Below are positions 691 to 23,746 of a stretch of 64,000 nucleotides of DNA, in pieces. The notes under the pieces are model-generated. The model made no database searches. It was not told where the DNA came from and saw nothing but the letters and a program-made list of their open reading frames with translations. This DNA is from Tubulanus polymorphus (Eukaryota > Nemertea > Palaeonemertea > Tubulaniformes > Tubulanidae), in contig NC_134029.1 in the NCBI RefSeq assembly GCF_964204645.1, forward strand, positions 19,734,450 through 19,798,449. Reading direction: 5' to 3'. The number at the start of each line of letters is the position of its first letter. Position 1 is the stretch's first letter. The position numbers and the translations under genes are program-made.

Positions 691-3600
691 AAAGACCGCT
701 TGAAGGAGGCGATACAGGTAAGAACAATGTCCATATCATCCCGTCTTCGTTAAGTATCGTCACATAATAACTAAAAAAGTTCTTTTCTTATCGACCGCTG
801 AATCATCAATTGATCAATTTTCAACCATTCCTTTCTTCTAATTGCACAACAGTATATTTTTCTAGCGTATTAACTATAATTTATCAAAATTTTGATTATT
901 GTGGACAATTTTTTTCCTCATTAATTAATTCATCGTTTTAGCTTTGAAATATGATTACGATCGATGGAATGGTAGAGTACATTCCTCAGAACTACGCGTG
1001 AACTCTTTCCTTAGCTTTTAGATAGAAATCACGTTTCCCTATCCTTGACCTGTTAAGCTTCGATTTAGATTAAATTCAGAAATGATTTCCCAAAAAGAAA
1101 ACAGTGTAGAGATTGTTAAAAATGCTTTTAAACTCACTTTTTCGACCTAGCTAGAACGATAGCATGATTGAAATGCTTTCCTCTCAAGATTGGATAAAGG
1201 TTTTTTTCTTATTAAATTTTCATTCTGTGTATGTGAATTGGCTTTTGGGTTTTTTACACGGTGGAATATGACGACGATGAACTTTCATTTTTCGAATTAT
1301 TTTTCTCCATTTTATCCCGGTTCATATGTTTTGTATCCCTTCGGGAAATCTGCTTCGGTGTGTTTAAAGGCGGGATCGCGTTCAGATGCTCGATTTTCGA
1401 ATAAAATGTACTATATTCGTACCGACCTTGACAGTAAAAAGACTTGTCAACACACTTACAGTAAAGGTAAACAGATAACTCTGACATTCGACACCGGTGT
1501 TCGGATAAGATCTTCAGAAAATCTACCACGCCGTATTAATATGATTCCCGACACTGTAAGCTATGGTATACGCGTAGACAATTTCAAATTGGATTTACAT
1601 TTGATGGAGAACATATATATATCTACATATGTACGAAGTACGATGTCTAAATTATGTATCGCAATTATAAGATGATAATGAAATTAATACTGGTAACCCC
1701 GCACTTAGCCTATCAGATACTATTCGCAAAGCGCTTACTCAAATTCGAATGTAACTGTTACTGTAATTCTGATGTGATTAGGGTAGCCTCAAATGAAGCC
1801 ATTTTCGGCGTTAGTTATAGAATATCCGCTGTGATTAGCTATTCGAAACGAAAGTCTCTCTCCCAAGGGGCGGAAGTTAGAGTAAAAATTTGAAACTTTT
1901 TTTGAGATGCGATTAGAACGACAGCATTTAATTCGATTTCTATCGTACTCTGGTTTTTTTCATACATCGTTCACTGTTTTCTGCTTTGAATATCATCGAC
2001 GCGACGCAAGCACTGGAAAAAAAATTACGATGAACTTTAACATTATTAAGATACGTAAAATACCGTAAAAAAGAAACTCGATTCAAAATCTGAGACAAAA
2101 ATTCAGATATTCTAAATCGAAGAGATAGAAGAGATATGGCGAAAAGTGATCGCACGCCTTCACAGATAGATACGAATTTGTGTCTGTGTGGCTTACAAAA
2201 AAAAGTGATCTGACATTTGTAATTGAGTCCAAATACCCCACGGACACAATATATATTCGAAATCCATATAGTAAAAGATAGCGTACGTATTGAATCGGCA
2301 CACACCCACGATGTATACATTACACTGCACAAATATAAGTGCAATATCGAACGATCTACCTACTTCGTTTTCCCAATTTCAAAATTTAATGCCATGTTTA
2401 CATTTATAACGAATACCTCCTCCTCCACACACACACATACACACACACACACACATTATAGATAAAAAGGACGCAACTCCCGCCTAAGACTTTTTTTCAA
2501 AACATTGATTGATTCGGCGATGGAAGAAATTTCACGAATTCTCAACGCGCCCTAGTTTACCCTTTGATCATAGCGGAGAATTTATCAAGAGAAAAACATG
2601 GCCACGTTTTTGATTGAAATTCCTAACACCCATCTCCAAAACTCGTAATGTAAATATCACAACTCGTATGTCGTGCCTGCGGGCTTCGAAGGCGGCGGCG
2701 TTAATAGACTTTTTGACGAGCGTTGCGTATATTTCTGTGTTTCAGTAAAACTGTCGGGCACGAACGTCGTCGAGAACGGGACGCAAATATACCTGCTGTG
2801 CAACGCTACCGGAATGAGAAAACCGCCCGAGGACATAACGTGGTATAAGAGCGGTGATAAAATAAACTCTAACGTTAAAGCGAGAATTCTCATAACGAAG
2901 CACATACGAGACCGTTCGCTCATCAGCGTGCTGGTAATCGAACGGAGCCGACCCAAAGACAGGGGCACGTACACGTGCGAAATGACGAAAGATATTTCGG
3001 CCAGTATCGATATTAAAGTTTATAATGGTGAGTATATGATGTAAGATTCGTAGCCGCAAAAAACGATGATGTCATTTTGTCTCCGCTGTTCGCGAATTTT
3101 GGGCGACCTTCGGTTATCGGAGTTAGTCGAACTAAATGAAACCGAATGTCCGTTAGATGGAACTATGGTCCGGAAATGGTCGACAACGCAATTGAGCACG
3201 GTCGTTCGGACCTAGGTTCAAGATGGCCGACATTGTGAAATACGTTACTACCGAACTATAGTGCGTTCGGTTATTAGTTCCGACCACTAGTCGATTACCT
3301 ACGAAAACTGAAGTTGGCCCTGTGTTAAAGTTGCGTGTATTTGTTGTAAATGTGGGTCGATGTTGACACGGCTGCGGCGCCAATATTGTTACCTTGGTTG
3401 TTAAACTTTCCCTTACTCACAGCGGACTGGTCGTTAAACGTTCCCGTGTGCTGTATGTATCCGTATCACCACTTCAGCGGACAACAGACGTGCTTTTCGG
3501 TTCCACTTTTCTTTCGAATCATTTTTCCCTCATTATTATTTATATCGGCTTAATTAGTGCGGCTTTGAGTGTTTTGTCAGTAACCGATGGTGAAAATGTT

Positions 3601-6600
3601 TAGAAAAACAAAATTATTCTACGCTATGACCTTAAGAAAGGCTTTTTCGAAATACATGCGAATAACGTATAACCTACTAGGCCTTTAAAATTCGATTCTG
3701 GGTTCAACTCTCTACATTATCGCATTTGTTCAGCAATGCAATGGTATACCGACAAAGCTACAGTGGCAAGCGAGGATTCAGCGATGATCCGCCAGGATCG
3801 CTAGTGGCACTGGGTTTACTGCGCTCAATTTCCTTCTACATATTAAATAAATGCTAATCGACTTTTCTCATTAGTAAATCAACTTTCAGTGAAATCTATA
3901 CCATACGCTGAGTGAGAAAGCGGATCTTATATCTATCCGAAGACTCGATTGACAATTTTCGGATTTTGCCGATAATTTTGATGATTTTTTGATTTAAAGT
4001 TCAAATTTCATTGAAAATTAACTGATTTTCACTACGAATAACCCAGTGTTTTGTTGCGCTATCTGGCGAATGCCGGTATCCCATTGATTGCGGTAACTAC
4101 ATTCATAAGACGTGTGTATTTTCTTGAATATTTCCAGAATTTGAAAATCAATGGGAAAATCTCGATCTTACATGTGGTGAGCCCATAAGTGCTAGGCGCA
4201 CAAAAGTCTTCGACCTTGAAAACGCGGTGGATATAAGAGACACGTCATAAACAAAAAAAAAACAAATATTCTAAATAGAATAGAATATAATTCGAAATAG
4301 AATGATATAAAAAGTCCTTGGAGGTATCACGTGGGAAAGCCTTAGAAATAGTGGATAAATATATCCAAAACAAGGGCATCTAAGGCCATTTTATTTTTTA
4401 TAGTCGAGAAGCATATAATATGCGTATTCTTATCCGAAATATTTCATAACCTTTGCCCACCGGTCATTTATCATCGAGTCACTTAAAGGAAAAAAAGAAA
4501 ATTCGATTCTTTCATTACATTTATCTATTTTCCTGCTAGAAAATTCTGTTTTTGAATATCATATCCTCGGGAGCTTCCGCGCTGAGCAAACAGTAACTCT
4601 TTTCATAAATCTTATACGGCGCAAAAGAAGTAATGCCATAATGATTTCCACTGAGGGTAAGAAACGTAGTATTGTAATAATGGAAACCGAGCAACAAGAC
4701 GGGGGCCATTATAATTAAACATCAAAGCTTAAATACATCGGGGAATAGGTAATATCTTTGTCAAATAAAAGCGACCATCGCAGAACAAGATCTGCAAAAA
4801 TAAATGGTTTTATTTATTATCAATCTCTAACGTAGAATCAAATTCGAACCGTGACGCATTGATTACACGCTGTTGTTAAATGTTGACTTGTTCGCTTTTT
4901 GTTCGTGCATCCCATGTGTGATTTCTTTATTTGCGGCTTAATCGTAATAAACGTTCGTCAACCCAATTATTGGACAAAAATGTTCGGTTTTTGTCCTGCA
5001 TTTTTGCTTCTTTTTTGAGTTTCAATCGTTCTGAAAAAAAGATCTTTATCAATATCTTTATCATGAGAAATCGAAATTTTTAAGGTTATTTATTTTCGTC
5101 GATATCTCCCCGATTTCAGTGATTTTGTATCATCGTTTTGTTGATTTATAGGAATTAAGTACAGAGAGCATAGAGCCAGCGCTTTCAAAAAACGAAATAG
5201 ATCTATGAAAGGTAAAAGCTTACCTGTTTACCTGTTGTAAAACACCGCCATGAAATTCTAGAAATTCCATATAGTACATCAATCTATGTATTAGTTTCTA
5301 TTTTCGATTGTGTTCCTTTCGTTGCGTGTTGTTGTTTTGGTAAATGGAAAAATCAGATACGCAGACGTCTATGACGTCATCTTAAACAAACGCCTCCGCA
5401 CTGACTATCAATTGAAAATCAATATAACACATAAGATCGACCTTTTTGGTGAAATAGATAGCGGCAATGCGCTATTTTAGGTAAATGCGAGATAAATAGT
5501 CGAATGATTCACAAATATGAAAAAGTGTTTTACTAATTTTTAATCTCAATTTCGTTTAAACAAATTGCCCACGCTATCACTAAGTCAATACACATACTTC
5601 TCTCGTGAATATACTTATTCTTCAAAATATCTACTTTTGCTGAAATCCCCCATTACTTATATGATGTCTACCTTTATCCATAGACCTTTATCCAAATTTC
5701 GTGATTGAGCTTTTCATCAAATAAAGCTACCACCTGGTATATTTTGCTACGTGGAATATAGCTTTTCATAGTATAATCTGTTTAACAACCAATGTAACAC
5801 ACAATATAAGAGCGCTATAAAGAACCATTTCATATTCGCTGTTAACCGTACGATGTTTTTAACTTCGAGAGATTTGAAATTGTCGATAATATTATGTGTA
5901 ATACCATTCATATATGCAAATGAGTGATCTACTCTGTGTTAATGCATTTTTGTTTTATTTTTTTCTTTCATTTCATCTCCTGCATGACAAATCAAGTTGG
6001 CACTGCTAATGTTAAACGTGGTAAGAAATCCCTTTATTTTTGTTCCTACTAAAAAAAATACCGATCAGAAACGGTCAATGTTCTAATTGTTCATAATTAT
6101 CATCAATATCATTATTGCTATAACCTAATATCAATCATATTACTACATGTGAAATGTCCATGAATATCGATCGGAAAACATGACTGATTATTATGCTATG
6201 ATGCGGCATTGCCTGATGGCATGTTTTTAATTTCTCAATGGCGGGTTTATTTGCAGTCCCTTTTTCAGATTGTTTGCAATTTTTCTTCTTACTTTGCATC
6301 ACAATAGAAGCGAACGAAAATCATAGAACTAGCGTTTAGTCACATTTACGAACTGTATTGCACTGAAATATAATGTAGTAGGTAGCTTGCACCCACTGAA
6401 ATATATACGGTATAGCAAGTAGTTCTGCTGTCGTTTTAAAAAGTAAAACAAGCGAAAATGAATATTCCCTTACCAAAAATTAATTCGAAATTGAATTATA
6501 GAATAAGCGATTCCAAATTACACTTACTGCAGAAATAGAAAAATTGCACATCTCTATTTTTCGGATCCGTATCTGCCTATAAAACATTCATAGCCCGATC

Positions 6601-6958
6601 TAATCAACGAACGAATTCAAAAATGATCGTGATCATACGATAGCGAATCGCTACATTTATCATATCCAGTGCATACATACAGTAGCGTCAATATTATCAT
6701 CGCCATCGACAATAAGTCGAAATCGCCATTTTTCAAGCATGTTCGCTTAGGCTCTTCACACTGTGGGACTTGGGAAATAGCGGCATTTCTGTTTCATATA
6801 TTAGTATGTTGCACTCCTATCTTATATATTTTCCAGGTACTTCAGTCCTCCATGTACGAAGCGAAAATCTGAGTGGTTCGGCGACGCCTCGTTCTTATTC
6901 GTGTCTTATGACTGTGCTTACTCTTCTACTGACTGTGCGGCATTGCTTAGTGTCATGA
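691..6958 (+). CDS. Ig-domain cell-surface protein, model 1 (5' partial)
   Basis: 3' part of an immunoglobulin-superfamily gene. Proposed exons: 691-717 (27 nt), 2746-3027 (one Ig domain), 5152-5211 (60 nt), 5997-6020 (24 nt), 6837-6958 (last exon, TGA). Every internal exon is bounded by AG/GT, has a length divisible by three and is phase 1-1, so all join in one frame. The Ig exon encodes about 94 residues with the canonical Cys (YLLCNATG), Trp (ITWYKSG) and Tyr-x-Cys (YTCEM). The two linker exons are basic and polar. The last exon encodes about 40 residues ending in a hydrophobic stretch (CLMTVLTLLLTV) 6 residues from the stop, as in GPI-anchor signals, so an extracellular GPI-linked protein is likely. 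The signal peptide and earlier domains are not in the window. Alternatively these exons are the 5' part of one gene that continues to 17412, with 6837-6958 as an alternative end. The Ig exon and the tail are solid; the microexons 691-717 and 5997-6020 are weaker. Confidence 0.65.
718..2745 (+). other. Intron of Ig model 1
   Basis: About 2 kb between the small exon and the Ig exon. ORFs here (for example 1190-1675) have no domain, no codon pattern and no splice context. A (CA)n microsatellite lies near 2425-2455. Nothing else was recognised. Confidence 0.5.
2425..2455. repeat. (CA)n microsatellite
   Basis: About 30 bp of CA dinucleotides with one interruption, inside the intron before the first Ig exon. 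Confidence 0.95.
2746..3027 (+). other. Ig (I-type) domain exon I-1
   Basis: Acceptor TTTCAG before 2746, donor GTGAGT after 3027, 282 nt, phase 1-1. Encodes a full I-type Ig fold: strand-B Cys in LLCNATG (with an N-x-T sequon), strand-C Trp in ITWYKSG, strand-F Cys in YTCEM. The same pattern recurs in the six I-type exons of model 2. Confidence 0.88.
3028..5151 (+). other. Intron of Ig model 1
   Basis: About 2.1 kb with no recognised exon or repeat. Confidence 0.45.
5152..5211 (+). other. Basic linker exon
   Basis: 60-nt phase 1-1 exon after TTTATAG and before GTAAAAG. It encodes about 20 mostly polar and basic residues, including a KKRNR cluster, without a fold. It would form a stalk between the Ig domain and the tail. 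Confidence 0.6.
5997..6020 (+). other. 24-nt linker microexon
   Basis: Between ATCAAG and GTAAGA, phase 1-1, encoding about 8 residues (GTANVKR core). A long pyrimidine tract lies upstream, but the immediate acceptor is purine-rich, so the call is moderate. Confidence 0.45.
6837..6958 (+). other. Terminal exon with GPI-signal-like tail
   Basis: Acceptor TTTTCCAG, phase 1, TGA at 6956-6958. Small residues (SGSA) precede a hydrophobic C-terminus (LMTVLTLLLTV), the layout of a GPI attachment signal. It closes Ig model 1 or is an alternative end of a longer gene. Confidence 0.65.
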
Positions 6959-7141
6959 CCGGCTTCTTCTCCGATATAATCTCTACCCCCCTCATCTTAC
7001 GAATAAGAACCATGTGCAATTATCTGAATTATCAACCACGCCGCCAGCAGCGAGAGGAATAATTAAAACAAAATAGTACGAAACAGTCGTTCAAAATGTG
7101 TTCGTTTAGAATGATCGAAAGTGCGGACAGGAAAGAAGACC

Positions 7142-7167
7142 TATATATACATATATATATATATATA
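7142..7167. repeat. Short (TA)n repeat
   Basis: About 25 bp of TA dinucleotide with one C interruption. Confidence 0.85.
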
Positions 7168-9838
7168 CCCGGTTCCTTTTTACCGTTTCCGAACTTAAGT
7201 CCGTTTCTTTATAGAGAGCGTGCTTCATAACCTTGACGAGGTGCGGGTATTTTAGAGTACGAATATATACCATATACGAGGTGATTTTTTTCGGGAGTCG
7301 TGTGTGAAACGGGATGAAAGCTTAGAATATTGACTAAACTGTGAATATTTTACACACCGTCTGAGAGAGGACTTCACGACGCAGATTGTCATCGGAGAGG
7401 TTTTATTTGTAGGTTATAAGTTAAACATTAAGACAAGGCATTTAAACGTCAGTTAAGATTTCGAATGGAGGAGGAACATCGTCTATTGAACAGGGTGTAA
7501 TATTACGATAGTCCGCAGTACGATAGTTGAATTATGACTTCGAAATATAACCTATGTTTACCCGCGTAAATTGTACGGTTGAAATGTATCATTTATAATA
7601 GCGATGTTTATTTGTCAATTTTCTGGTTCATTTGTTTTGTATGATATGGACATGATATGAGTATATGAAGAATATATAGATATTGCTTACCCGTCACACT
7701 AATTTTGTAAGGAAATCTCGCGAAGAGAAAAGGAAAAAAAGTAAAATCGTTTTTTAGACGTCTAGTGTAAGCCCATAAAGTAAACGGTATAATGAAATAA
7801 ACCGCGAAGGCATGTTGCTATATATGTATATTGAGAAATGGGTTTATATGAGTACAATTCGCAACTCGAAAGGTACAACACTAGTCTCAACCACTGTGCA
7901 TTTTATCAGCAAACTGCAATCTCCCCGACCAAACCGACTCTCAATTCGTCAAAAAGACCCAGAACGCGTAACCTTTTTCTTAGACCTAAACCACATCATC
8001 AAATCCTTTTACGAATTTAGCTTTGCTACTTACTCGATTATCCAGGAAAACTGCAATGAAGTCTTCCTGAAAATCACCGGTTTTAACGGGCACTTGACGT
8101 GGATTGTATTCGTTGTATATACATATACATGAATTGCCATTTGTAGTTTCATGAAAACAGAAGTGCCATAATGATGTTCGCGGATATGAAATTTGAATCG
8201 ACGATTGTCCGCTCCTGGACCTTACCTTATTCTTTTAAACGGTGTAATTCGTGGCAATGTGTTTGCCACAACAAAATGATGAACACTATAGTAAAATACG
8301 GTCTGATTTTTTTCAGAATGAGAAGCTTATTTTGACTTTTCCTGCCTAGTTTAAGTTGGCCTAACATGTCGGTACTTTTATGTGCAAACGCCATTAATGC
8401 ATTTACATATTGTTAATTGACAGAACGTCGTGTTTTAAAGCGTATAAATATGAAAACTATTTGATTTTTTCTTCAAAATTCGCTTTTTCGGTGTCCCTGA
8501 GTATTTTCAGTTCTCGGTGAGCGCGCGACGGCGTTTTGATGGAAACCTTATAACTCGAATTGTTGTGGTCGGTATGAAAGTTTAAAATTACCCCGGGTCC
8601 ATTCCCGCGGTAGTGACCACTCGTTCGCTTGAAAAACACCGATGAGTCATAAGTTTGTACTGTGTACAATATTTCTGTAAATATGATATTACGAATTTTT
8701 CGCCTCTGAATCGATCGACATCGTTCGGAAATTTGCCTTATTAGTCGCGCGCGTGGCTTAAGTATGCGCCAGTCAATTGAACGCCGTAAATCGATGTACA
8801 TTTTAGAAACTGATATACGTAGCTGAATTATTGTTATTCCTTTAATTGGTAATGATATAAGTATCTTTAAGTACATACGATACGATGTTGCCACCACACA
8901 ACAGAAACAACACACTTAGCGTGTATATACATATATATATTTGCTACGTAAGGTGTGGTGGCAGGTCGAGTTCTTTAAGGTCTATTGATGTTAACACGAT
9001 ATGAATGAAGGCTATTAAAAACATGTTGAGAACCTTTTTCACATATTGTATTACATTGACAAAGATATCATATATATACTATTCAAATTCAATACAATAT
9101 TCATTGTACCGAATGCATGTATCATACTGATTGAAAGACGTGTACATTTATTTCATCTTCAGTATTGTGACGAAATTTTGAAATATCCACCTAACTATTA
9201 TGTCCTATTAATACAGTTCAGTACACATCATTGGTATGTCATTTTGGACCAATGAACCATTTTTGTTTCAGCCGATATATATCCGTGTACAAAAACAAAC
9301 ACTGCCGATCGATATTTCATCATAGTAAAAACAATGCTGTTATTTCATTTCTCGGTATGTAATCGTTGTACCGATATATTACCTTATTACCCGTCGTCTT
9401 TATCACACACTTCAATACTCTACTAATCTTCTCACTATATAGAAGTCGGACATTTTTACCTCGAAAACGAGCGAACGAAAGTCAAGGGATTTTTTTCGGA
9501 CGTGCGTTCGATGGGTGACTTTTTTGAGAAAGGTTACAGAAATTCTGGGGATTCCGACGGATCGACATTGTTTTGTCTCCGGTTGCTTTGCCAAATTTTC
9601 CAGCTAATCGTTCGGAAATTGTCTAATCATCTCCTGGGATATATAATTGATCGTCTAATTGCCGTTAGTCATAAATTCTATCGAGTCATATATGTAGGAC
9701 GTATCACTTTTTCCACGTTAGTACCTTTTGTAATATTTTTGTGATACTATCATATATAATGATGTGAATAGATACGTAATTCTACTATTATACTTGCCTA
9801 TTACATTTCGAGTATATCTGTTGATTGATTTGAATTAT

Positions 9839-10086
9839 CAGGGGCGGATCCAAGGGGAGGGTGCACCCCCTAATCCCTAAAAATGTCAAATGCCCATAAA
9901 TTTTATTGCAAAAATGAAATAAATTAAACTGATACACAAACAAGTTTGGATTCATAAGCTTTTCTGTGTATTGCCAAAAATGAGTTCATTTTTGCAAAAA
10001 ATGAGATCATTTTTGCCCTTTTAATTATATAATACCCTATTTTGGGGGAACACCCCTCTCTGAATTAGACCCTGCATCCGCCCCTG
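9839..10086. mobile_element. TIR element (MITE), CAGGGGCGGATCC family
   Basis: 248-bp non-autonomous element. The left end CAGGGGCGGATCCA is inverted as GCATCCGCCCCTG at the right end. It is flanked by a 5-bp direct repeat ATTAT (9834-9838 and 10087-10091), consistent with a target-site duplication. CAGGG termini are typical of hAT transposons; 5-bp duplications would fit only some hAT groups. A second copy with a perfect 5-bp duplication is at 54982-55227. Confidence 0.8.
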
Positions 10087-11346
10087 ATTATTTCTAATTT
10101 AGATTAATTATAGTCGTATAGATCGGTAAACAATGACAACTTGGTATGTGACGTCACTGTGAAAACTAAGCGTGTATGAAAATTACGTTGCTATAAGTCT
10201 TGTCAAAATCTGTTGATTATTCAAAGGCTTCGAGTTTTCGAATTTCAGATTTTGCCTCCCTTACAATATGGTTCATGGACGCTGGTACAACCGCTTAAAA
10301 ATGATTTTTGTCTCATTTCGCACGCTATTTTCGTTTCGCGAATTCGTAGATTTACCCAGGATCTATACTAGATCAAAGAGTTAAATTTTCATGACATCAC
10401 CTCGCAAGTTGTCGATATATGTATAGCGAATAAGTGCCAAATATTTTTTCAATTCGTACTATACAATATTGTTGCCCCGCTTCTGAACGACGACAAACTA
10501 CATTCATTATAATGGTATCCCCACATGACTGTAATCATTCTGTAGGAGCTAAAAATTGTAACATAAATATATTATATATAATGTATCATGTGAAATGTGA
10601 GAGCTTGAAAAAAAACGGTTTTTTGTTGATAATGTATTAATGAATATTTTTCTTAAATGGCTACAGTTGTAAATTTGTCAGTTCAATGAAAGCATACGAT
10701 TACAAATAATAAAAGCAAAGTGATTTATCCAAATGTTATCGTAATCTGGTCTAATGCTATTACCGTTCCTTCGAGAATGCGTGTTCCTGTTTTTTCTGGA
10801 TAGCCTCTTATGTTGACATCGCAAGGATTAGCTGATGTTCCATACATACTCTATAGACTTGTAAAACAAAAACATCTGGATTGAAGTGAAATTTCGATAC
10901 ACATCGTGAAACATTGGACGCCTGGTGTTTAATTGAGGAACTGAATTCGTCTGTAGGCACCTACGTATAGACGGGTTGGCGGTCTCTACATTCAGTCCTA
11001 TTCTGACTGCGAATGCAGGTGGCGCAGAATTGGACAGGTGACCAGTCTAACCTACGTAAGAACAGCTAAAATGGAGCTTGATTCAGGGAGATCCAAGAAA
11101 ACTGTATGCTATTTATCTTAATTGTCATCATTGATATTCATTCTATCGGAGGGGCATGGCATATTGTAATTGCTTGATGAGGTGGCGGTCTTATCAACTA
11201 TATGCATTGCATGATGGTAATGAAGGTGGATGATCTTTGCTACGACTTGGTTAAGAAATACTATCAAAATCATAGAAAACCGACAATTAGATATAACCTA
11301 TGATTTCTGGAAATTTCGTTATTTTGAATTACGTTTGTTTTTGTAG

Positions 11347-11805
11347 ACCCATCGTCGACAAATGTAACGGTTAGGACCGGGGGGTCCACTGTACTCAAAT
11401 GCCGAGTACACGATTCATGCCATAAAACGGTAGGAATGAAGTAAAAAAATCATGACATATGATAAAGTGACCTGTAACCATATCGTATATAATGTCCCAC
11501 GAGTATATACGTAATAAATCTTCCTGAAACTTAGACGGGGAAAGGAATCTAATTTGCATAATGTTTTGATATGCGGTTGCAGGTAATTTGGCGCAAGGCG
11601 TCGAGTGTTCTGCCGTTGGCGGTCGGTTCGTTGAAGTTCGTCGGCGATAACCGGATCAAGGTCACTACCAGACGAAAACCCGGAAATGTAACCGAGTACA
11701 ATCTGAAGATCCGCAACGCGGAACTGTCCGACGACGACATCTACGATTGTCAAATACGTTCAAAATCGACGCTGCTAATTAAAGTATTCAACCTAACAGT
11801 ATTCG
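11347..11805 (+). other. V-type Ig domain V-1 (two exons)
   Basis: Exons 11347-11429 and 11583-11805, split by a phase-0 intron. First Cys in LKCRVHD, Trp in VIWRKAS, last Cys in YDCQIRS. Exit is phase 1, so the exon pair forms one exchangeable cassette. Confidence 0.85.
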
Positions 11806-14800
11806 GTACGAGAAATGGATTTCAAATTGAAATGTTGAAAAGTTATAAATTTACAACACTAATCACCACTGATAAAAGATATATGATATACATGAAGTAT
11901 TAATACAAGTAGGAACACGGCTATCTGAAATATCAATGCCAGGGGCGCATCCATGAATCTCGAATAGGGCATCCAAAACCTCCTTGCCCTAGTTATAGTA
12001 TTTACAACACGAAGTGCGAGTGCGGGTAGGGAGAAGCATAGGGACCTCCTCCAAGAATATTTGATGAAATTTACCTTTTTCTGACCATCGAGGGTAATTG
12101 AAAAACAAAAATTACCATGCAACTAATGTTATCTTGGCAAAAAAGGGCGCATGAACCACCCTTAAAACCCCTACTAAATGCTGCTTTATATTAGTAGCCG
12201 TATCGACGGATTTAAACATACGATAACATAGTCCTTCTAAAGAAACTTACATAAATGCTTGTTAGATTATCATTTTTGCAGCCGCAACAAACAACAACAT
12301 AAATGCGACAGGTACGTACGAACTATCTATCTTCAGGTTTAGTTAAATCCTGAAATCATTCGCGCATTTGATCAAGAATTGTATGCAGATTAGGAATAAT
12401 CAGGAATCATCGATTCTGATACATGTTCTCTTTTTGTACAGTCAGGGTGACTGGCACTCGGATTGTGGAAGCGGGCAGACGTCTTTATTTGTTGTGCAAT
12501 GCGACCGGCACCCAAAACAATTCGCCCGCAGATATTTCCTGGTTTAAAGACGGAAAGATACTTCATTCCGATGCCGTAGACGGGATACTTATCACCAAGT
12601 ATTATCTGACGTCTACTACAATCATTAGCGTGCTTATCATCGGGCAGAGTAGACTGAACCATACAGGAAAGTACGCCTGCCAAATGACACCGGGAAATAC
12701 GTACGGCAGCGCTAACGTTAAGATCATAGCCCGTGAGTCTTCTCAATAAGGATTCTACAGCAAACTGACCAAATTGACCAATTAGTAGTAGACCTAGTAT
12801 TTCATATTCCGTACTGTCCTAATAACAATTTTACCTTCGGTAGCAATTTTGATATGCCCTGTTTGGTTCTAATTTGCAGCTGAAAATGAAATTGATGGTG
12901 CGAAAGGTAATCAATTGCATGATTCTAAAATCCTGCGTTCTCTCGAGGTTAAAAACCATTCGACGGAAGCTCCATCGGTAGTTTTTCACATGTGCCTGAT
13001 GAATGTACGAATTTGTTGTAGTTAAAGTTGCGGGTAATCGTATTGTGGCCGAGAATGACAAACTCAGCTTGTTCTGCAATGCGACGGGAAGCCGCGAGAA
13101 CCCGCCCGATAATGTTTCGTGGTTAAAAGACGGAAAGGAACTTCATACAAACTCCGACGACGGCGTACTTATCACTAAATATTACTTATCGCGCACTTCT
13201 TTGTTTAGTGTACTAATCATAGAGTATAGTCAGTTGAAAGATGGAGGCCAGTACACCTGTCAAATGACACCCGGTAGCGTATTCGACACTGTAAGCGTTG
13301 ACATTTACACCGGCGAACTAGACGTAGAAAACCGCAGACGACATCGTGTCAGCCGCCGTGACATTTTCCAGAGATCGTCTGGTAAGATATATCGTCTATT
13401 CATTTGCATGCTTATCAGATACTTAAGAATATCAGATTATGTTTATGCCCACAAATATACATATATTGGAGGAAGTTTAACGTCTTTGAATGCGCTATTG
13501 CGCTGGGAAAATGATTTCATCTTTAGTATTTCTCACATCGTTCAGTTAATTTTATGGAGATAAATAAATGAATGTTATGAAGAATTCTTCGTATTACAGT
13601 GATAGGTATAATATTTCTTATAAATCCGTACAGTTTTCATTTTGATATTCGACAGTGACGATTAAAGGAAAATCGGAAGTGGAAAGTGGAGGACGATTAT
13701 ACTTGTTATGTAACGCTACGGGAAGTGAACAAAATCCACCTAGAGATATTTCCTGGTTTCGATACTCCAGCGAGCTCCATTCAAACTCAGCTGACGGGAT
13801 ACTAATCACAAAACGGCTATACCGTAAAACGTTGTTAGGCATTCTTGTCATTGCCCGCAGTCGAATGAATGATACAGGCCTGTACACCTGCCAAATGACG
13901 CCTGATAAGCTACGCGCCTCCGTCTACGTCGAAGTTTCCTCTAGGAATTATCTCAATCGTGTGCGTCGTGACCTTTCTCCGAGAAAGTCTCGTAAGATTT
14001 CGACATTTGTTTAACGATGAGCCTGGCTTCGTCTACCAGTATTGCAATCGTATAGATAATGATATTTCGTTGCAGGCACACGTAGTCGAGCACTGACCAC
14101 AAGGTTTAATCCATCGCCGTCTTATAACGTCACGATTACGACCGGGGAGACGGCACTGCTTGTATGTTCTGTACACAATCTAGGCCCCAAAACGGTAGGA
14201 AAACGTCATTGTATATCCCGATAACTTATCGTCCAAAACGGCATCAACCCTGACTTCAGTTTTAGGAGCCAGTCGCTCAAAAGAGTTTAACCAGTGGATA
14301 GTTAGAATTATGTAGATTCATCTACCTAGGTTTCTTCGTATAATTGAACCGTTTAAACTTATTTTCATTGAATAAATTGTAGCCGAGTTATAGCTTTCAT
14401 CGAATTTCATCGGAATCCAAGAATGATGTCATCAGAGGAACCCAGTTGGTGAACAAGTCTAGAGTCGGAGATAATTTCGGCAGTGAAAATAACTTTAACT
14501 GGTTCAATTACAGTGGATAGTTAACATAGTTTTAAAACAAACTGCATTTCTACAAAGGTGATCGGCCGGTTATCTGCCGCAACGATGCCGCTAGTCCCCC
14601 ACTACAATATCTTTTATGAATCTTCGATCCTTTGGCATCTACGTAAATCGTGTCATATCTATCGCGTGATGAAGGTATATCATCGTCTGGTTGTCGTTTG
14701 AAGGTAACGTGGCGAAGGGCATCTGATGCGTTTCCGTTGACGGTTGGTTCGTTCAAGTTCGTCACCGACGACCGCATCAGCGTGACCAACAGACGAATAT

Positions 14801-17412
14801 CCGGGAACGTAGACGAGTATAATCTGATAATACGAGACGCCCGATTATCCGACCAAGACAAGTACGAGTGTCAAATCAGCTCGAAGCCGAAGTTGTCGCA
14901 AGTGTTTATCTTGACAGTAATGGGTACGAAATCTAAATCGTTATCTGGAACTGTCGATAGTCATAACTATAAAGCGTTTGGAAAAAAACTCGGATTTGTT
15001 GCAATATCCATATCCTTCGAAGACAACAATACTATACCTACATCTAGGTTACAATGATTATCAAAATTAAGTTATTAGTAAACGTAAAAAGGTAAATCAG
15101 AACCTCGGGTAAAATTTTGCGTTGATTCGTTTCTAATTCTTTTGTAGAAATCAAAAGAGACCCAACTGGTAAGTACCTAGAAATCAGAGCCTAGATTCGA
15201 AAGACAAGTTATGAAATATTTAAATGTGTCGAAATCGATATCTTTCGATTAAGAAGTGAATTCCATCGTCTTTTTAATGCGATACAGTCACGGTCACAGG
15301 AAGTTTATACGTTCAAAACGGTAAACAATTGTACCTCCTGTGCAACGCCACGAGCGGCGACCAAAAGCTACCCGACGACATAACCTGGTATAAAGACGGT
15401 CGTGAACTTCATTCCAACGTCGCCGATAGGTTACTTATCACGAAGCATTTCCGGCTCGGGTCGATGATAAGCGTGCTCGTGATAGGACACAGTCTACTGA
15501 ACCACACCGGGCAATACAGCTGCCAAATGACACCCGGGTACATTCACGACACGGTCGACGTGGAAGTCTACATACGTACGTTCGTTTAATCTTAAATGAT
15601 AAGTACAAAATTTCCTGTTCGTCAAAACTCCAATGATTTAGAACCTACAACAGATTCCAGGGCGGATCCATGGACAGACTTTGATAGGAGCACACGGTTA
15701 TGAAAATGCCATATTATACTGAAAAAGGCTGAAGACAACGGCCTGGAAAATGTAGGAATTTCTGTGCATTTTCTACGCACTTGAGGGATATATAATATAT
15801 TATGCTAAATCTTGCGCTGCGGACTGCTGTGTTATCATTTGCGGGTGGAAAAATTGCCCTGAAAAATATTGCAATTGTGTTTTCAAAAGGGTCGCGCATG
15901 TTCCTTATGCTCCCCTCTGGATCCGCCCCGCCTGAGTTATGATCTTGATCATTTATCTGGCTGTAATCTATATTTATAGCCTCGGTAGTTTTGACCGGAA
16001 CTGAACTCGTGCAAATCGGGCATCAGCTATATCTCGTCTGCAACGCCACGGGTATTTTCGGGGAAAATGGCGCCGCAATGGAGTGGTACAAAGACGGAGC
16101 CCTGCTAAGACCGAATCCCAAGAAGAACGGTTTCGCCGTATCCAACATACTGGGTCCGAATGGCCATACGTTGGTCAGTATTTTGGCCAAACGAAACAGT
16201 CACCGCTCTGATTCAGGGGTGTACTCGTGCAAGGAGCCTCACTACAAAAGCCATGAGTTGACCGTGGAAGTTTTCCCGAAATTTTCTAGTACGTAATATC
16301 TAATCAACTTATACTCAATGTATATACTCTATTTGCAAATTTATCATCATGAATTATGATAATGCATCAATGAATGCGAGAGTATTCCTGCTGTTCTTTT
16401 TTTTCTATAGTTTCGTTACAAGGAACGAATTTCGTCGAAGTGGGAAACGTTTTGTATCTGATGTGCAACGTTTCGGGTTTGTTAAGCGCCCCGAATGACA
16501 TCACGTGGTACTCGGAAAGGGGAGAAGTCATCGTCGAAAAGGGTCAAACTCGGATCAGCATCACTAAAGTGGTGAGGCACTTTACTTTGATCAGCGTTTT
16601 GAAGATAGAAGAAACTCGTCTGTCGGATGGAGGCACTTACACGTGTGAGGTTAACGAGTTTGAATCGTCTAGTTTGAGAGTCCATATGCTTGAACGAGGT
16701 GAACTCAAAAAATAATCTCTTTTAGTTCAGAAATGGACATCGTTCTTAGGCTAAAACTGATACCTTGTTTCAACTGATCGTCTGGTCATGCTGTAATCTG
16801 AAAAATTTGTGATCAGCTCATTTCTATAACTGCCGCGGGTCTCTTGATCATAATCTTTTCTAAAAAGTAATGTACAGGGACCGTATTCACGAAGCACCTG
16901 TAGTTACGTGTCACGTAAATTTACGGGTTACAGGCGAACTTACGGGTTGTCTACGTGGTATTCACGAAACTACCCGTAAGTTTGCACGTAAATTCACCCG
17001 TAAGTTCACCCGTAAATCTCGCACGGGCACTTATATCAAAGCGCATATTATTCTTCGAACCATCATTGGCGAAGGCCCGTCCAGACGGGTGCTTCGTGAA
17101 TAAGGACTTTTCTCTACGTGTGAACTTACGGACAGACTTACGTGACACGTAGGCTTACGGATGCTTCGTGAATACGGCACTAGGGTAGATAGGCGATCAA
17201 TTCTTATTATCAATTCTTTTTACCTTACTTGATTTCGGTGTTATATGCTACGCGGTAAATTGAAAAGTAAATTTGGTTTTTTTTCAGTTAAGAAATACAG
17301 GAAGAGTTCCCAATCATCGTCTGCGGCCGGTTCAATATCTTCAGTAGGTTCGGCAGTCGCCGCGTTGATATATACGCATTTCTTCTATCGAGTTAAAACT
17401 GTTATGGAATGA
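11347..17412 (+). CDS. Ig-superfamily surface protein, model 2 (V-I-I-I-V-I-I-I)
   Basis: Fourteen exons: 11347-11429, 11583-11805, 12282-12311, 12442-12732, 12880-12906, 13022-13381, 13656-13991, 14076-14194, 14704-14923, 15148-15168, 15288-15575, 15980-16288, 16411-16698, 17288-17412 (TGA). All join in one frame, giving about 906 residues; the first exon with the signal peptide was not found. There are eight Ig domains: two V-like, each split over two exons by a phase-0 intron just before strand-C Trp (VIWRK, VTWRR), and six I-type, one exon each, phase 1-1. Microexon linkers of 21-30 nt lie between some domains. V domains carry RI.VT and YECQIS-like motifs reminiscent of lachesin/DPR-type neuronal Ig proteins; I-type domains share LCNATG...ISWFKDG...YTCQMTPG. 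The last exon encodes a Ser-rich stretch, a weakly hydrophobic segment of about 23 residues and a short RVKTVME end: a transmembrane anchor or atypical GPI signal. Likely an extracellular adhesion or recognition receptor; ligand unknown. Confidence 0.82.
12282..12311 (+). other. 30-nt linker microexon
   Basis: TTTGCAG before, GTACGT after, phase 1-1. Encodes an Asn-rich linker (TNNNINAT) with a possible N-glycosylation sequon. Confidence 0.6.
12442..12732 (+). other. Ig (I-type) domain exon I-2
   Basis: 291 nt, phase 1-1. LYLLCNATG, ISWFKDG and YACQMTPG carry the canonical Cys, Trp and Cys. Confidence 0.9.
12880..12906 (+). other. 27-nt linker microexon
   Basis: TTTGCAG before, GTAATC after, phase 1-1; encodes an acidic linker (ENEIDGAK). 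Confidence 0.55.
13022..13381 (+). other. Ig (I-type) domain exon I-3 with basic tail
   Basis: 360 nt, phase 1-1. The Ig domain (LFCNATG, VSWLKDG, YTCQMTPG) is followed in the same exon by about 25 extra residues rich in Arg (RRRHRVSRRD). The next exon has a parallel tail, so exons I-3 and I-4 look like a duplicated pair. Confidence 0.9.
13656..13991 (+). other. Ig (I-type) domain exon I-4 with RVRR tail
   Basis: 336 nt, phase 1-1. LYLLCNATG, ISWFRYS and YTCQMTPD mark the fold. The tail NRVRRDLSPRKS contains RVRR followed by Asp, which fits the R-x-[KR]-R furin consensus. Confidence 0.9.
14076..14923 (+). other. V-type Ig domain V-2 (two exons)
   Basis: Exons 14076-14194 and 14704-14923 with the same internal phase-0 intron as V-1. 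Cys in LLVCSVHN, Trp in VTWRRAS, Cys in YECQISS. Confidence 0.85.
15148..15168 (+). other. 21-nt linker microexon
   Basis: TTTTGTAG before, GTAAGT after, phase 1-1; encodes IKRDPT. Confidence 0.55.
15288..15575 (+). other. Ig (I-type) domain exon I-5
   Basis: 288 nt, phase 1-1. LYLLCNATS, ITWYKDG and YSCQMTPG. Confidence 0.9.
15658..15934. mobile_element. TIR element related to the CAGGGGCGGATCC family
   Basis: Sits in the intron between Ig exons I-5 and I-6. Left end CAGGGCGGATCCATGG, right end GGATCCGCCCCGCCTG. The TIRs are slightly diverged and no clear target duplication remains, so it is older than the copy at 9839. Confidence 0.65.
15980..16288 (+). other. Ig (I-type) domain exon I-6
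   Basis: 309 nt, phase 1-1. LYLVCNATG, MEWYKDG, YSCKEP. More diverged than I-2 to I-5. Confidence 0.88.
16411..16698 (+). other. Ig (I-type) domain exon I-7
   Basis: 288 nt, phase 1-1. LYLMCNVSG (sequon NVS instead of NAT), ITWYSER, YTCEVNE. Confidence 0.88.
16876..17184. mobile_element. TIR element (MITE) with internal short repeats
   Basis: About 300 bp in the last intron of Ig model 2. Ends CCGTATTCACGAAGCA and its inverse TGCTTCGTGAATACGG. The TIR continues inward imperfectly (TTACGTGTCACGTAA). The interior holds several CCCGTAAGTTCA-like repeats. No coding capacity. Confidence 0.75.
17288..17412 (+). other. Terminal exon of Ig model 2, hydrophobic tail
   Basis: Acceptor TTTTTTCAG, phase 1, TGA at 17410-17412. 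Encodes about 40 residues: a Ser-rich stretch, a weakly hydrophobic segment (GSAVAALIYTHFFY) and RVKTVME. Could be a membrane anchor. Confidence 0.7.
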
Positions 17413-18299
17413 TAATCAAAAACTAATTACTAAATTCAGATCCCCACCGGTACGAAAGCGTGAGTCATCTGCTGTACAAATGATTTGTAATAGATATTCA
17501 ATGAAATACATAGGATGTTTATCGAAATCGTTCATTCACTTTAAAGATATTTTCAGCGTGAGGAAAGTGGCTCATTTCTGCTACCTCAGGTGTGCATAAG
17601 GAACGATTTCTTCATCGGCCAGGGCGTTTGGTGTCTGCTCCGTCACCTTCGCAATGGCAAATAAAGCCATGCCACTTTCCTCGCTCATCAAAGTATTTTG
17701 GAGCCATTTCCTTCAGAGCATATTTTCATTGGGGATCCAAAAAAAGACAATTCAGCCTAAAATACAACAAAGTAAATGTTCCAGACAGACACTGAGATCA
17801 CAAGTCAATATTCTCGTACAAATTTCGAAATTGATGATTTATATTTTATTTCAAGAAATTGTGTTATTTTACAGGCGTCAACTTGTATTACTGCAGAGGT
17901 CCACTGAAAGAATTAAAAATAAACCATACATTACACTTTAAAGGATTTAAAACATTCGACATCGAATATTCATAAACAAAAATCTCGTGTTGCAAGTCTT
18001 AGTTATAGTAGAAAGATTCTTGCAAGTGCAATTAATTTTACCTGAACAATTTATAGCAGTCATTAATGCAGCCAAGATATTTGTCTTCAGCTGTGCTATG
18101 GCAGAATCGTTTACAGTACGCCTGGCACTGCGAGTCACAATCGTAATACGCCATTGCGAAACTCAGCAAAAAAGCTGCAACTGCAAATATATTTTTGACA
18201 AAAAGAATGAAGGACACGAAATCTAGTAAAGAAAGAATGGGTTTTAGATACCATAATCATAGTCAATTTGTTTGTATCTTAGTCTTATTCCTGAGATTT

Positions 18300-18600
18300 T
18301 CCTAATACACGGTCCCTACAGATCAGTCATTCCTGATATAAGGAGTTTCCAATCCAAAGGAGAACATTTACCGAAGTGTCCGCATCACTCACTTTCATAT
18401 CCCAATTTACTGTAAATTCCTCCGGAATCGGTACTGTTTAACTCGGTAAAACATTATAATTCGGTGGTTTTGTAAGCAAATTTTCATCCTACACACTACC
18501 TAAATTACTCGGTTCCTAATTCGGTAACCGCGTAATTTGATTTTTTTTTAAATCCTGGTCCCAACTGTCTCAAAATCCTGGTCCCAATTGTAAGGCGTAG
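18300..18600. repeat. Dispersed repeat, copy 1
   Basis: Shares GGTCCCTACAGATCAGTCA and a series of ordered shorter blocks (GGTACTGTTTA, ACACTACCT, CCTGGTCC) with 20590-20870. The copies are clearly diverged. Class unknown. Confidence 0.6.
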
Positions 18601-19364
18601 TCTACTGTACAACTAAAACAAACTAAAAAAAAATTCAAATTGCCTATTTCGAAGAATTGAAGGATTTGTGTGCATTTTGCTCGAATTAAATGAGTTTTAA
18701 ACACCCTAAAGCACTTTCCGTTTAGAAGGGGTTTTTACCGAATCAAGGGGTCGTAGGGGCCCTTTGATATGAATGCACAATGTTGAAAATGGTTTGAATA
18801 TATTTGTTTAAGAACGACAAAAAGCCTAGGATACCTTTAGCCTACTTACACACGAATAAAATCAAGGATTTCATATTTCGTCCTCGTCAGTTTATCACTT
18901 TGTCGTACAGCAAATTGTGCAGACCGTCCGTCCACAAAGTTGTTTTTTTTTCGTTATCGTGGACGTTATCAGTAACATCCGCAATCAATCAACTTATCGC
19001 TAACAAATTAAGTGACACATTACGAATTTGTTTAGCTACAAAAATAGCGTTTTGTTACGTTATGTCGCAGGCAATTGAATTCCATCTCATGATTTGCAAT
19101 TCTTTCAGTCCACAATGCGTACTTTCCTGATTATCTTTTTGTTGATACGTAGAGGACACAGGACGTTCTGAAATAAACTTGCACTCCATTTCAATAGTAC
19201 TATGGGACACCTGTTCCATCTTTTCAGCGGCATAATAGAGCAACAATAACAATGTTTTTGGGTGAATGTTGCTTGATTTATTGTACAATGCGATAACGCA
19301 ATTGCATAGAATATCATACACATTATTTACATTCACATACTTTTTACGCAGGCCCGGCAGAGTC

Positions 19365-19500
19365 CAAGTGCTGCCCCTTTACACATCGTTAACGGTAAAT
19401 ATGTGAACTAATCTGTTACTTGCATGCCGCAGTGAGAATACTGCGCAATTCAGTTAGTTCACGCGTTTGCCGTTAATGATATATCTAGGGGCAGCACTTG
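19365..19500. repeat. Fold-back (palindromic) element
   Basis: 136 bp. The ends CAAGTGCTGCCCC and GGGGCAGCACTTG are perfect inverted copies. Further inward ATCGTTAACGG pairs with CCGTTAATGAT and GTGAACTAA with TTAGTTCAC, around a short centre near 19435. Would fold into a long imperfect hairpin. Confidence 0.75.
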
Positions 19501-20420
19501 ACAGTTAGGATCTGACAGTCGAGCGGTGGGCCACGCTCCACCGAACATTCCGATATTCTTCATACACAACGGAAACCACAAAAAAAAGCGTACCGAAATT
19601 TGTTTGACTAGCTTTTTCTCAAAAGAAAACGTGAATCTATGATATTTTCTGTCAATTGACATCAATCTATCGTTTTAATTAATGAATACAGGCAAAGACG
19701 GCCACCCTAGGCGGTTTTGTAGAATGTATGCAAGAAATTAAGTTTGATAAGGTTAATCACGCATTCTAAAACGATTTAGAATCCATGGGTTAATCCAATG
19801 TTGCATTTAAACTCTACAAGCAGCTCTAAGTCTACAGCTTGCACCTATCAGGGACTTGCCATGAAACTTAGTGAAACGTGATGTATTGTACCAATAAAAA
19901 TATCCACGAATACCAGAAATAAAAGAGATAAAAATATCTATTCAATAATAAAAATGTTTATTGATTCATATTGTACAGTCATTTTCTTTTTTTTAAGTTC
20001 AGGAGTGTGCAACGTATGGCAGGTTTCTATTGGTCTCTACCGTCCGGAATTCTCTTCTGGCGCGTTCGTTTTGACCAGAATACGCGGTACCTATCCCGCA
20101 ATAGCATAATTTGTAAACCCGTATAAAAGGCTGGAAGAGAGTTTGTAATTTCCATCCATGATTCCTACTTGATTGCGTTCAATTGAAACCTGCCTAAGTC
20201 CATCCTCACTTGCCAGCGTTTGATTGCCTCTTGATCAAACCCTGGCAGGTGTAGGATAGCCCAAGTCACCGAGTCTCAGAAGTTTACCAATGTCGACATT
20301 TTCCTAGGCATGTAATCCGATTCACACGGCGTTAAATAATCCATAATTCAATTCCATTGTTTATCGCCGGTAGTGTTTTCCCGAGGCTAACTATTATCGA
20401 AACGCGTAAACGCGAGAGCC

Positions 20421-23400
20421 TCATAACCGTTTCGCTTTCCTCGGTCTATCGCCTCCGATCGGTACGTAGGTGTTATCGGTTATCGATACGACTATCACTC
20501 CGGACATGGTTAATCCTTTAATCGCCGACTGCAAAAAGAACGAAAACAAATTCTCTGGAATTATCGACAAAATACAATGATAGACAAGAAAAGGGTCCCT
20601 ACAGATCAGTCAATTGTGGACATGAGGAGTTTCAAGGAGTTTTAAACGAGAAAATCTGAAATTTCGAGGACACCACCGACCAGCACACTGTCATATCCTA
20701 ATGACTGTAGACTCCTCCTGAAACGGTACTGTTTATCTCAGTAAACAATCTATTTGGTAGTTTCAAAACCTAATTTCTATCCTTAACACTACCTCAACTC
20801 GGTTTCTAGGCCAGTAACCACCTAATCCTGGTCCTGACTGTACCACTGAAACTAGGATTAATTTCCAAGTTCTATTTGTAAATCAATATTTCTAAAGCAT
20901 TTTAAAAATTTACGACATGCAAAATGATACTTCCATCCATATTATTTTCTAAGGAGAAGTTTGTTTAAAAAAATCTGTCTCGCGCAACATTTCTAAAATT
21001 TGCACAAAACTTAAGTTCGGTGAAATCCTTATAAGGAACATGCCGAGAACATTTTGTGATATCTCATTACCATAACACTACTCAGATACTTACCAAACGC
21101 CCAGGACCGAGTCCCTTGACGATAACTCGTACGTACTTCGAACCTTTATTTATGGCTTTCTGAAACATGAATAGAAACCATTGAATTCAATAAATTCTTT
21201 TTTTCAATAAGGTTCTGACGATTTGACATAAACTTCATTAACCGGACAGTACAGTAGACTCATCTTTACTCGGAACCAGTCTAGCCAAAATGACCAGCCA
21301 CATCTTTAAATTTAACAAACACTTTCTTGGAGTACCCGGCCAGCTAAGTGAAATAAGTGAAATAAGCTAAGTGAAATATAACGGTCCGACCAGAACCGAG
21401 TAGAGCGGAGTGTACTTTACTAGATCTTTATCCATCCACTGATAAACTTACTTCTCCCATCGACATTCCAACAGCTTGCGCAGCAATATTTGTGCCTTTC
21501 TTCGCGTTTCTAAATCCCTCAAAGCCCTATAGATATATGTAGATCGAATTACAGACATATCAAGCTACTGTTACTATAAATATCACGAAACAATTTTCTT
21601 TTTCATTATTGAAGTAAAAATTACCTACTAGCAAACTCATTACAACAAACTTCCGGGCACCATAAAATTACTTTGTTATAACTGATAGTTCAGTTTACAG
21701 TATGAAATTAATCAAATTGTCTTGGGACAAAATACTCTATTTGTAATGAGTGACGAGTCATTGCATTCCAACGTCGTTATAATGAGGTTCCACTGTTTGA
21801 GGAAATACCGAAGTTGGAAGAAACATTTTATAATTCTATAGTCACTAAAAGTAAGTTAACACGTTTGCTGCCACCATGATAATACGGTGCTGCCCCCAAT
21901 TACCACTACGACTTTAATTGTAGGCTGGCACTGGAGCTATTACATCGCCAGCGTTTGTTCAAAATTCACCAGTGAGCAGTGAGAATGAAGCTGAGTTTAT
22001 TTAAATTGCCAGCTCATCAGGAACTGTGTAAATTCCTGTGCGCCAAAGTGCAAATATCTAACTGTAAGTGGGAGAAATCAGCTATGAACATATTCGTAGT
22101 GGCACTGGTGACAAAACCGAAAGTACGAGTATACTGCTAGCTGGCAGCAAACATGTTTAAACAAATTCCACTAATTCTTACTTACAGCACTTGCATGCGT
22201 CATGACAGTGCCTGTAACATAAAAAGAAACAAAACTACAGCTTAAACAGAACAGAGTCAGTCGGAAAAGCGGGATTTCGTTTCACAATAATCAGTTTCTA
22301 CGACTTACCATTGTGGTCGGTAAGGTCTATGTGAGTATTATTATGAGTAGCTTTGATATGCATTATCGGCAATTCCGAATAGAGTTTGTCATCTATGACC
22401 ATGCTGTGCGTTTCAGCAGTCGGTATCGGTATTCCCGTTCTAAAACACAAATTGCACACGATATTCATTAATCTATATCAAGTACTAGACTACAGACTAA
22501 CTCAGACGAATTAGGACCGGCAAAATTGGTCCGAGTTTAAGCGAAGTCCTGAGTAAATAAGGATAGGAAAATTATGTTAGCAAGCCACAAAAATTATTCA
22601 ATTTTTGTCTGAGGTCATCAAAAGTCCCCATGTTCGAGTAAGGCGAGTTAGAACTTCTACCAAATTATTGGAACCCTAGAATTATTATCATTTAAATGAA
22701 TGCGTATTCTACAATGGCAGCTAGACATTTCATATGTTAAGAAAATTTAGATTTTCAAAAATTGTTTAGATTATGCGAATTGACGACATACTGAAACATT
22801 CCTTCCAGCTCTACATCGACGTCTTCCGACGGTGCGTCGAGGACGGTGACATCGCGATTTCTCGCCTTCGAAAGCTCTTTTTTACTTTTCACGTCTTTGT
22901 CCAAAATGAAATTAGCCGCAGATAAGTGCAACGAACGCATTCTTCCGGCTGAAAAACAAAACGAGATTTCGTTGATATCAGATTCAGTCAAAATAATCAA
23001 ATTCAAGCAGGGGGCAAGAGATTCCAAGGTTAAAATTAATCAGCAGTGTAGCAAGTGCCAAGCACCAAATTTTTTTTCCATGAAAAATAAAAGGTTCTAG
23101 ATGCATTTTTCTACATTTAACAGTGAAATTTAACATTCAGTGATGAAGGACTGATTTTTTTCAGAACATTGGGAAAAGCAGTGTTAAAAGAAATTCAGGG
23201 GGATTCCAGATACCCTGAAATCCCCCTGGACCCGCCCTGTTAAGGGTTCAGTTTCACAGAGTAGATTAAAACTATGAATAGAGAATTGAAAAGAAGCATC
23301 CCAAAATTAACTGAGGGGAAATTAAGAGAAAGCATCCTAAAATGAAATGAGGGAAAGCATCCTAAAACAATCTTATAATTCATACAGTATGTCAAAACGA

Positions 23401-23746
23401 GGGCAAAAACAGGACTGGAGTTGGACTGGACTGGGAAAATGGTATCCCACGAATACACTAAACGCAAAAATATTCACAACGATAAAATTTGCCACGATTG
23501 GTGCGATTTTTGCTTTACCACCAATGATTTGGTCAGTCACCTAGCCATGCCCATAACAAGAAATAGGTGTCCCTCCAAAATAAGCAGAGCTAGAATCATC
23601 TAAGGTGACAATAACACAGCAAAATTCTCAACATACATACCTGCATCATTAGATAGTCTATATATATTACTAGTAGAACGTAGAACTGGAACCGAGTTGT
23701 AAATTCTGTTGGACGGCAAAGCAGCAACCACCACTCGTCTCAACAT
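20421..23746 (-). CDS. MRPS11: Mitochondrial small ribosomal subunit protein uS11m
   Basis: Nuclear gene for the mitochondrial 28S subunit protein uS11m, which binds 18S-like rRNA in the platform near the decoding region. Seven exons on the minus strand: 23641-23746, 22792-22948, 22309-22439, then 26 nt near 22184-22209, 21452-21526, 21094-21159, 20421-20528 (TGA). All junctions are GT-AG and the frame is continuous, giving about 222 aa (human about 194). The N-terminus is rich in Arg, Ser and Ala with no acidic residues in the first 30 or so, as expected of a mitochondrial import signal. Diagnostic uS11 blocks: [51 protein letters not shown]. The usual C-terminal PHNGCRPRKARR-like motif reads [14 protein letters not shown] here, so the HNGC part is altered. 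Start chosen at the only Met that precedes the import signal in frame. Confidence 0.94.
20590..20870. repeat. Dispersed repeat, copy 2
   Basis: Partner of 18300-18600, just outside the last MRPS11 exon (in its last intron). Begins with the same GGTCCCTACAGATCAGTCA block. Confidence 0.6.
21249..21422. mobile_element. Probable mariner-like MITE in MRPS11 intron
   Basis: Begins near TACAGTAGACTC and ends near GAGTGTACTTTACTA, with internal inverted CTCGGAACCAG / ACCAGAACCGAG. TA at both ends fits a Tc1/mariner-type insertion. The TIRs are imperfect. Confidence 0.45.

Follow-up and report, generated by a model that had tools for sequence, protein, structure and literature searches.

The locus is probably a single-copy Dpr orthologue whose unit of a V-type Ig domain, a linker exon and an I-type Ig domain has been multiplied within one gene. 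We analyzed a 64,000-nt window (C5:19734450-19798449) and searched a genome of 267.8 Mb in 77 contigs. Positions below are window positions unless a contig is given. Judging from the V-domain searches, the genome search with fly Dpr6, and the V-domain tree, the animal's orthologue of Dpr is most likely this gene, with three copies of the V-I unit. So far, 1140 residues of the chain can be predicted, with three V and seven I domains in the order V0-IgA, V1-IgB-IgC-IgD, and V2-IgE-IgF-IgG, followed by a short tail. Most likely, the V-I unit is repeated inside one Dpr gene, unlike the many separate genes of the fly. We agree with the initial annotation, which was made from the letters of the window, that this is a modular Ig receptor of the recognition type.

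Seventeen exons were mapped on the forward strand with AG and GT at every internal border, and their spliced frame is open from 691 to the TGA at 17412. Unit 0 is represented in the window by L1 (691..717), a 27-nt linker exon between V0 and IgA that encodes ERPLEGGDT, by IgA (2746..3027), and by L2 (5152..5211), a 60-nt basic linker exon (FKKRNR) leading from unit 0 to unit 1. The second V domain is split into V1a (11347..11429, phase 1 to 0) and V1b (11583..11805, phase 0 to 1). It is followed by the 30-nt linker exon L3 (12282..12311) between V1 and IgB, IgB (12442..12732), the linker exon L4 (12880..12906) between IgB and IgC, IgC (13022..13381) with the basic C-terminal tail RRRHRVSRRD, and IgD (13656..13991) with the tail RVRRD. 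The third V domain consists of V2a (14076..14194), separated from IgD by an 84-bp intron, and V2b (14704..14923). The 21-nt linker exon L5 (15148..15168) joins V2 to IgE (15288..15575), and IgF (15980..16288), the most divergent I-type domain, and IgG (16411..16698), the last one, complete unit 2. The terminal exon (17288..17412) encodes a weakly hydrophobic C-terminus and the stop.

All seven I-type Ig exons that had been claimed are present. Each runs from phase 1 to phase 1, as L1 does, and each exceeds the curated threshold of one or more Pfam Ig models; the best E-values range from 6e-12 (IgA) to 4e-6 (IgF). Single V halves reach no such threshold, the second halves scoring 3 to 7 bits below the cut-offs of their best-matching Pfam models, but the joined V domains with both halves give strong matches to Dpr V domains. 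The V1 and V2 cassettes are entered in phase 1, split by a phase-0 intron, and left in phase 1. The claimed symmetry of the two V cassettes therefore holds for whole cassettes, but not for the single halves, whose lengths (83, 223, 119, and 220 nt) are asymmetric. Likewise, any subset of exons had been described as skippable; whole modules do keep the frame, but the two halves of a V domain must go together. An open frame at 4419-4718 had no Pfam match and was dropped as a domain exon, and motif matches at 18255, 36073, and 57543 and two on the minus strand were not Ig-domain-like. A tblastn search with six domains against the window beyond 17412 gave no match under E=0.4, and Rfam at gathering scores gave zero matches within the window. 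The earlier exon observation was largely right and is in part confirmed here.

For the short exons, splice scores were trained on the window's 11 Ig and V exons, the terminal acceptor, and the general donor consensus, with the linkers excluded. At a score sum of at least 15, the 12 introns contained seven short in-frame phase-1 candidates in sense orientation, against zero for the antisense strand, and at a sum of 12 the numbers were 10 and 1. The seven candidates are L1, L2, L3, a short form of L4, L5, and two nested in a MITE-like element. Read in phase 0 and phase 2, the same sense strand yields five and three candidates, respectively, at a sum of 15, so that the phase of the linkers is argued from the fit to their neighbours and not from the count. 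Phase-1 linkers thus exist, although five (L1-L5) are supported in place of the six or more previously listed. The weakest linker acceptor is that of L3 (3.9) and the weakest linker donor that of L4 (3.7). In L4, an alternative donor at 12897 scores better than the one at 12906, and either preserves the frame, which makes a small splice variant possible. One short in-frame exon lies at each of the three V-to-I junctions. A further candidate at 4138-4176 has a lower score, and the well-scoring candidate at 16934-16975/16999 was rejected because it lies inside the MITE-like element. This element occupies 16881-17177 in the last intron and has the inverted ends CCGTATTCACGAAGCACCTGTA and TACGGATGCTTCGTGAATACGG.

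The identity of the V domains was examined by searches against the PDB. V2-L5-IgE matched Dpr4 first (5.7e-22) and Dpr2 next (2.4e-19) among 114 matches, with both Ig domains aligned, so an I-type Ig2 directly follows Ig1 as in the Dpr family. V0 matched Dpr6 (1.7e-20) and then Dpr10, Dpr4, Dpr2, and Dpr1. Its best 13 of 159 matches consist of Dprs and DIPs alone, including one named CG32791, which we take to be DIP-alpha. V1 gave 29 matches with Dpr2 first (3e-11), Dpr6 second, and IgLONs close after; by these matches it is probably the most derived V domain. The V-set Ig1 nearest to Dpr Ig1 is thus found in V0, V1, and V2 with IgE. The stretch LTVG occurs in V0 and V2, and LAVG in V1. The I domains by themselves do not appear diagnostic for Dpr Ig2: in a search with a profile of all seven, titin and Dscam come out on top and Dpr4 is 21st of 57, and IgA alone places Dpr4 4th of 90 matches.

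Genome searches pointed in the same direction. Fly Dpr6 matched eight places, with V0 best (9.8e-11), V2 second (5.8e-6), and V1 last (E=0.49). V0 as a query matched 18 places at E up to 1, led by four exons of its own locus and followed by two DIP-like genes and then by a place on C9. At E<=0.001, all matches of V2 (4/4) and of IgB (7/7) were in their own locus. No second Dpr-like place was present among the matches of the genome searches run, which score the best candidates only, so that a further Dpr-like gene or remoter relatives may escape.

The V-domain tree comprised 14 domains, namely V0-V2, five from fly Dprs, four from fly DIPs, and two from the animal's own DIP-like genes. V0-V2 and the fly Dprs were split from the fly DIPs and the own DIP-like genes with a support of 93/92. 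Within this division, V0-V2 (84/86), V1 with V2 (97/96), the fly Dprs (88/92), and the fly DIPs (98/98) formed groups. Since V0-V2 and the fly Dprs are separate groups, duplications later than the divergence from flies seem to have produced the three V domains. The I-domain tree had long branches at IgF and at Ig2 of Dpr4, and its group of IgB-IgE (82/93) alone was used. A Dpr has only two Ig domains, and the ten predicted here indicate a derivative of the Dpr family rather than a standard Dpr.

The gene extends beyond the window. A V0 cassette lies 2.9-5.7 kb outside, at C5:19728702-19728814 and C5:19731339-19731558, and splices to L1 in frame. Because of this upstream cassette, the gene begins outside the window; of the span of 691-17412 given in the initial annotation, the stop at 17412 stands and 691 is not the gene start. 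A first exon with a signal peptide was not found in a 77-kb scan, in which 10 candidates were on the plus strand and 19 on the minus strand. Units 1 and 2 almost surely belong to one gene, since the 84-bp intron between IgD and V2a hardly has room for a gene end and a gene start. For units 0 and 1, the phase in which L2 ends (phase 1) suits V1a, but a 6.1-kb intron lies between them, and the joining of these two units and the 5' end of the gene are inferred.

The phases of the exons resemble those found elsewhere in the family. The four mapped exons of a DIP-like gene upstream, which leave out the second half of its Ig2, have phases 1 to 0, 0 to 1, 1 to 1, and 1 to 1. The same phases in that gene mean that the phase-1 symmetry is no sign of exon choice, and the symmetric exons look like the inherited layout of the family. 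Phase 1 is usual among extracellular modules. In eight other Ig exons, the best donor was in phase 1 in 8/8 and the best acceptor in 4/8, although these exons come from one 0.2-Mb region of contig C1, so that they are not independent, and several of their acceptor scores are low. In the alignment of V2-L5-IgE, the residues that Dpr4 has between Ig1 and Ig2 are provided by L5. As L5 gives this Dpr4-like spacing and L1 and L3 are equivalently placed, these three linkers look constitutive. The repeats within 11300-17412 are coding, except for the MITE and one 19-nt family with one copy in the last intron, and no shared intronic element as in mutually exclusive exons was seen in this range. In the 11 of 24 exon pairs with an estimable dS, dN was below dS, the other 13 being saturated. 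Together, these observations fit old, constrained domain copies in one chain.

These results bear on two other readings of the receptor. The initial annotation had suggested combinatorial isoforms as in Dscam, with the seven I exons and, as we would now add, three V cassettes being alternative or freely skippable. Every whole module can be skipped without frame loss, L4 has its two frame-preserving donors, and IgB-IgE resemble one another. However, we consider a Dscam-like gene with many isoforms improbable. The phases seen here are ordinary and recur in the four mapped exons of the upstream DIP-like gene, the V-then-I order is repeated without blocks of interchangeable versions of one domain, no repeated intronic elements other than the MITE and the 19-nt family were found in 11300-17412, and L5 suits the Ig1-Ig2 spacing of Dpr4. 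Arrays of mutually exclusive domain versions, the typical Dscam feature, are replaced here by the V-linker-I order, and the combinatorial suggestion is therefore not supported. Close orthologues with a known adhesion role had been named as evidence that would remove it, and in part these exist, as the relatives in fly and worm act as adhesion receptors on neurons. An immune recognition receptor like those of molluscs (FREP, IgIT, and similar), in place of a wiring receptor, is still harder to reconcile with the data and is very improbable. Invertebrate receptors with several Ig domains and a role in immunity have been described (PMC11999971). Against this, the searches and the tree place the V domains with Dprs (FREP and IgIT sequences being outside the comparison), antibody light chains match V2-IgE far more weakly than Dprs do, close copies elsewhere are absent among the genome-search matches, and the 40-residue terminal exon of this gene model cannot hold a fibrinogen domain or a long signalling tail.

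Two further readings accept the Dpr identity and differ in how the units are delivered. The locus could be two neighbouring genes, a two-Ig Dpr gene (V0-L1-IgA with a hidden end) and a gene from V1 to the terminal exon that starts in the 6.1-kb gap. The longest mapped intron does sit at the border of units 0 and 1, unit 0 is the most Dpr-like by its V domain, and the gap contains candidates for a signal-peptide exon (5942-6020, donor score 9.7) and for a terminal exon (6257-6339), of which the antisense strand of the gap has none. This arrangement is nevertheless unlikely, since the candidate end is downstream of the candidate start, which is the wrong order for successive genes, signal-peptide-like candidates are not commoner on the plus strand (10) than on the minus strand (19), and the phase-1 end of L2 is compatible with V1a. 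The single gene could also encode a Dpr polyprotein cut by a furin-type convertase at KKR in L2, RVSRRD in IgC, and RVRRD in IgD into several Dpr-like ligands. The border stretches are L2, the IgC tail, and the IgD tail with the first 11 residues of V2, and make up 71 of the 1140 residues. Their K+R content is 35% vs 12% elsewhere, and the IgD-V2 border (RVRRD) has the one R-x-[KR]-R that occurs in the predicted protein. Five of the seven RxxR motifs fall inside the border stretches, which was equalled in 7 of 100000 random placements, although the stretches were picked after inspection and the figure flatters the polyprotein idea. Linkers are often basic for other reasons. The basic borders allow, but do not show, the cutting apart of the units, and we regard the polyprotein as a doubtful though conceivable outcome. 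The products would be V-I, V-I-I, and an anchored V-I-I-I in a fixed ratio. If true, internal duplication would substitute for the 21 genes of the fly, with a DIP partner gene nearby.

The C-terminus was also inspected. The terminal exon encodes 40 residues with a best 17-residue hydrophobicity mean of 1.49, which is weak, and charged residues at the end. A usual GPI signal is unlike such a weakly hydrophobic, charged-ended tail. Three terminal-exon candidates including the mapped one were found on the plus strand of 16699-24900 and none on the other strand. The acceptor of the mapped exon scores 11.9, and those of the two alternatives 6.7 and 6.9. We infer that the terminal exon is a candidate membrane anchor.

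Other genes were observed in the neighbourhood and elsewhere. The upstream DIP-like gene (C5:19609106-19622095) is on the same strand, with its last mapped Ig exon about 107 kb before V0a, and contains a V exon pair and parts of Ig2 and Ig3 exons. Its best PDB matches are DIP-theta (2e-19) and DIP-eta. Between it and V0a, only a reverse-transcriptase frame was recognised by eye among ORFs of at least 105-110 aa, a threshold at which short-exon genes may escape. A second DIP-like gene at C5:4511824-4531823 has an identical V split, so that two or more separate DIP-like places exist in this genome. A search with a DIP-like V domain matched 27 places at E up to 1, of which 17 cluster on both strands of C3:22833302-23206079; these 17 matches are all weak (E 0.001 or more), and V-type Ig genes may be arrayed here in tandem. 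On the minus strand of the window, a short frame at 18041-18256 has a hydrophobic start, a cysteine-rich end with CxxxC spacing, and no Pfam match, and looks like a secreted peptide. A 548-aa open frame at 24928-26571, also on the minus strand, contains a MYND finger and an MSS51 C-terminal domain. Frames matching CitMHS (citrate/anion transporter type) are on the same strand at 32711-33028, 47462-47761, and 50715-51110. Of these, the first and second, separated by about 15 kb, are near-copies and may represent a duplicated gene.

We propose that all exons of the Dpr-like gene would be spliced constitutively into one surface protein, and that one chain would present three DIP-binding Ig1 faces. 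By analogy with the known pairs, Ig1 of V0-V2 may bind DIP-like partners. Dprs and DIPs bind via Ig1 faces with a conserved hydrophobic core, as stated in one report (PMC6374074). Another describes that the worm proteins RIG-5 (three Ig domains) and ZIG-8 (two Ig domains) interact at synapses by way of Ig1, and that both ZIG-8 and the Dprs are GPI-anchored with two extracellular Ig domains (PMC12881522). A multivalent Dpr could then adhere to DIP-like partners on other neurons with a higher valency than a two-Ig Dpr. Dpr-DIP pairs are a leading case of molecular matching between neurons, with the fly diversity coming from many two-Ig genes, counted as 21 Dprs and 11 DIPs (PMC11999971). If our reading is true, the one detected Dpr-like locus with three Ig1 faces would reveal another way to gain diversity or valency. 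The DIP-like gene nearby may be a remnant of the duplication that founded the Dpr and DIP families, which makes the Dpr-DIP linkage on C5 a possible relic of that event. Among the matches listed from the open-licence PMC literature, there was no report of a Dpr whose V-I unit occurs more than once, which is weak evidence of novelty.

Three known systems can be compared with the locus. In the hypervariable Dscam of arthropods, many Ig exons have symmetric phases, as they do at this locus. Unlike Dscam, the locus has no arrays of alternative versions of one domain, and no fibronectin domain was found among the exons scanned against Pfam. In the PDB search with V2-IgE, Dscam (5e-10) was a weaker match than the Dprs (6e-22). 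The Dpr family, with the Dprs of Drosophila and ZIG-8 of C. elegans, has a V-type Ig1, a short hinge, and an I-type Ig2 as here, and is closest to V0-V2 by sequence match and by tree position. In contrast to the two-Ig Dprs, the predicted chain has ten Ig domains, three of them V domains; units 1 and 2 carry additional I domains, basic stretches border the units, and there is no clear GPI signal. A micro-exon is present at every V-I junction here. The DIP/RIG-5/IgLON family belongs to the shared superfamily, and the phase-0 split of the V domain also occurs in the animal's own DIP-like gene. However, members of that family have three Ig domains in the order V-I-I, whereas V0-V2 are on the Dpr side of the tree.
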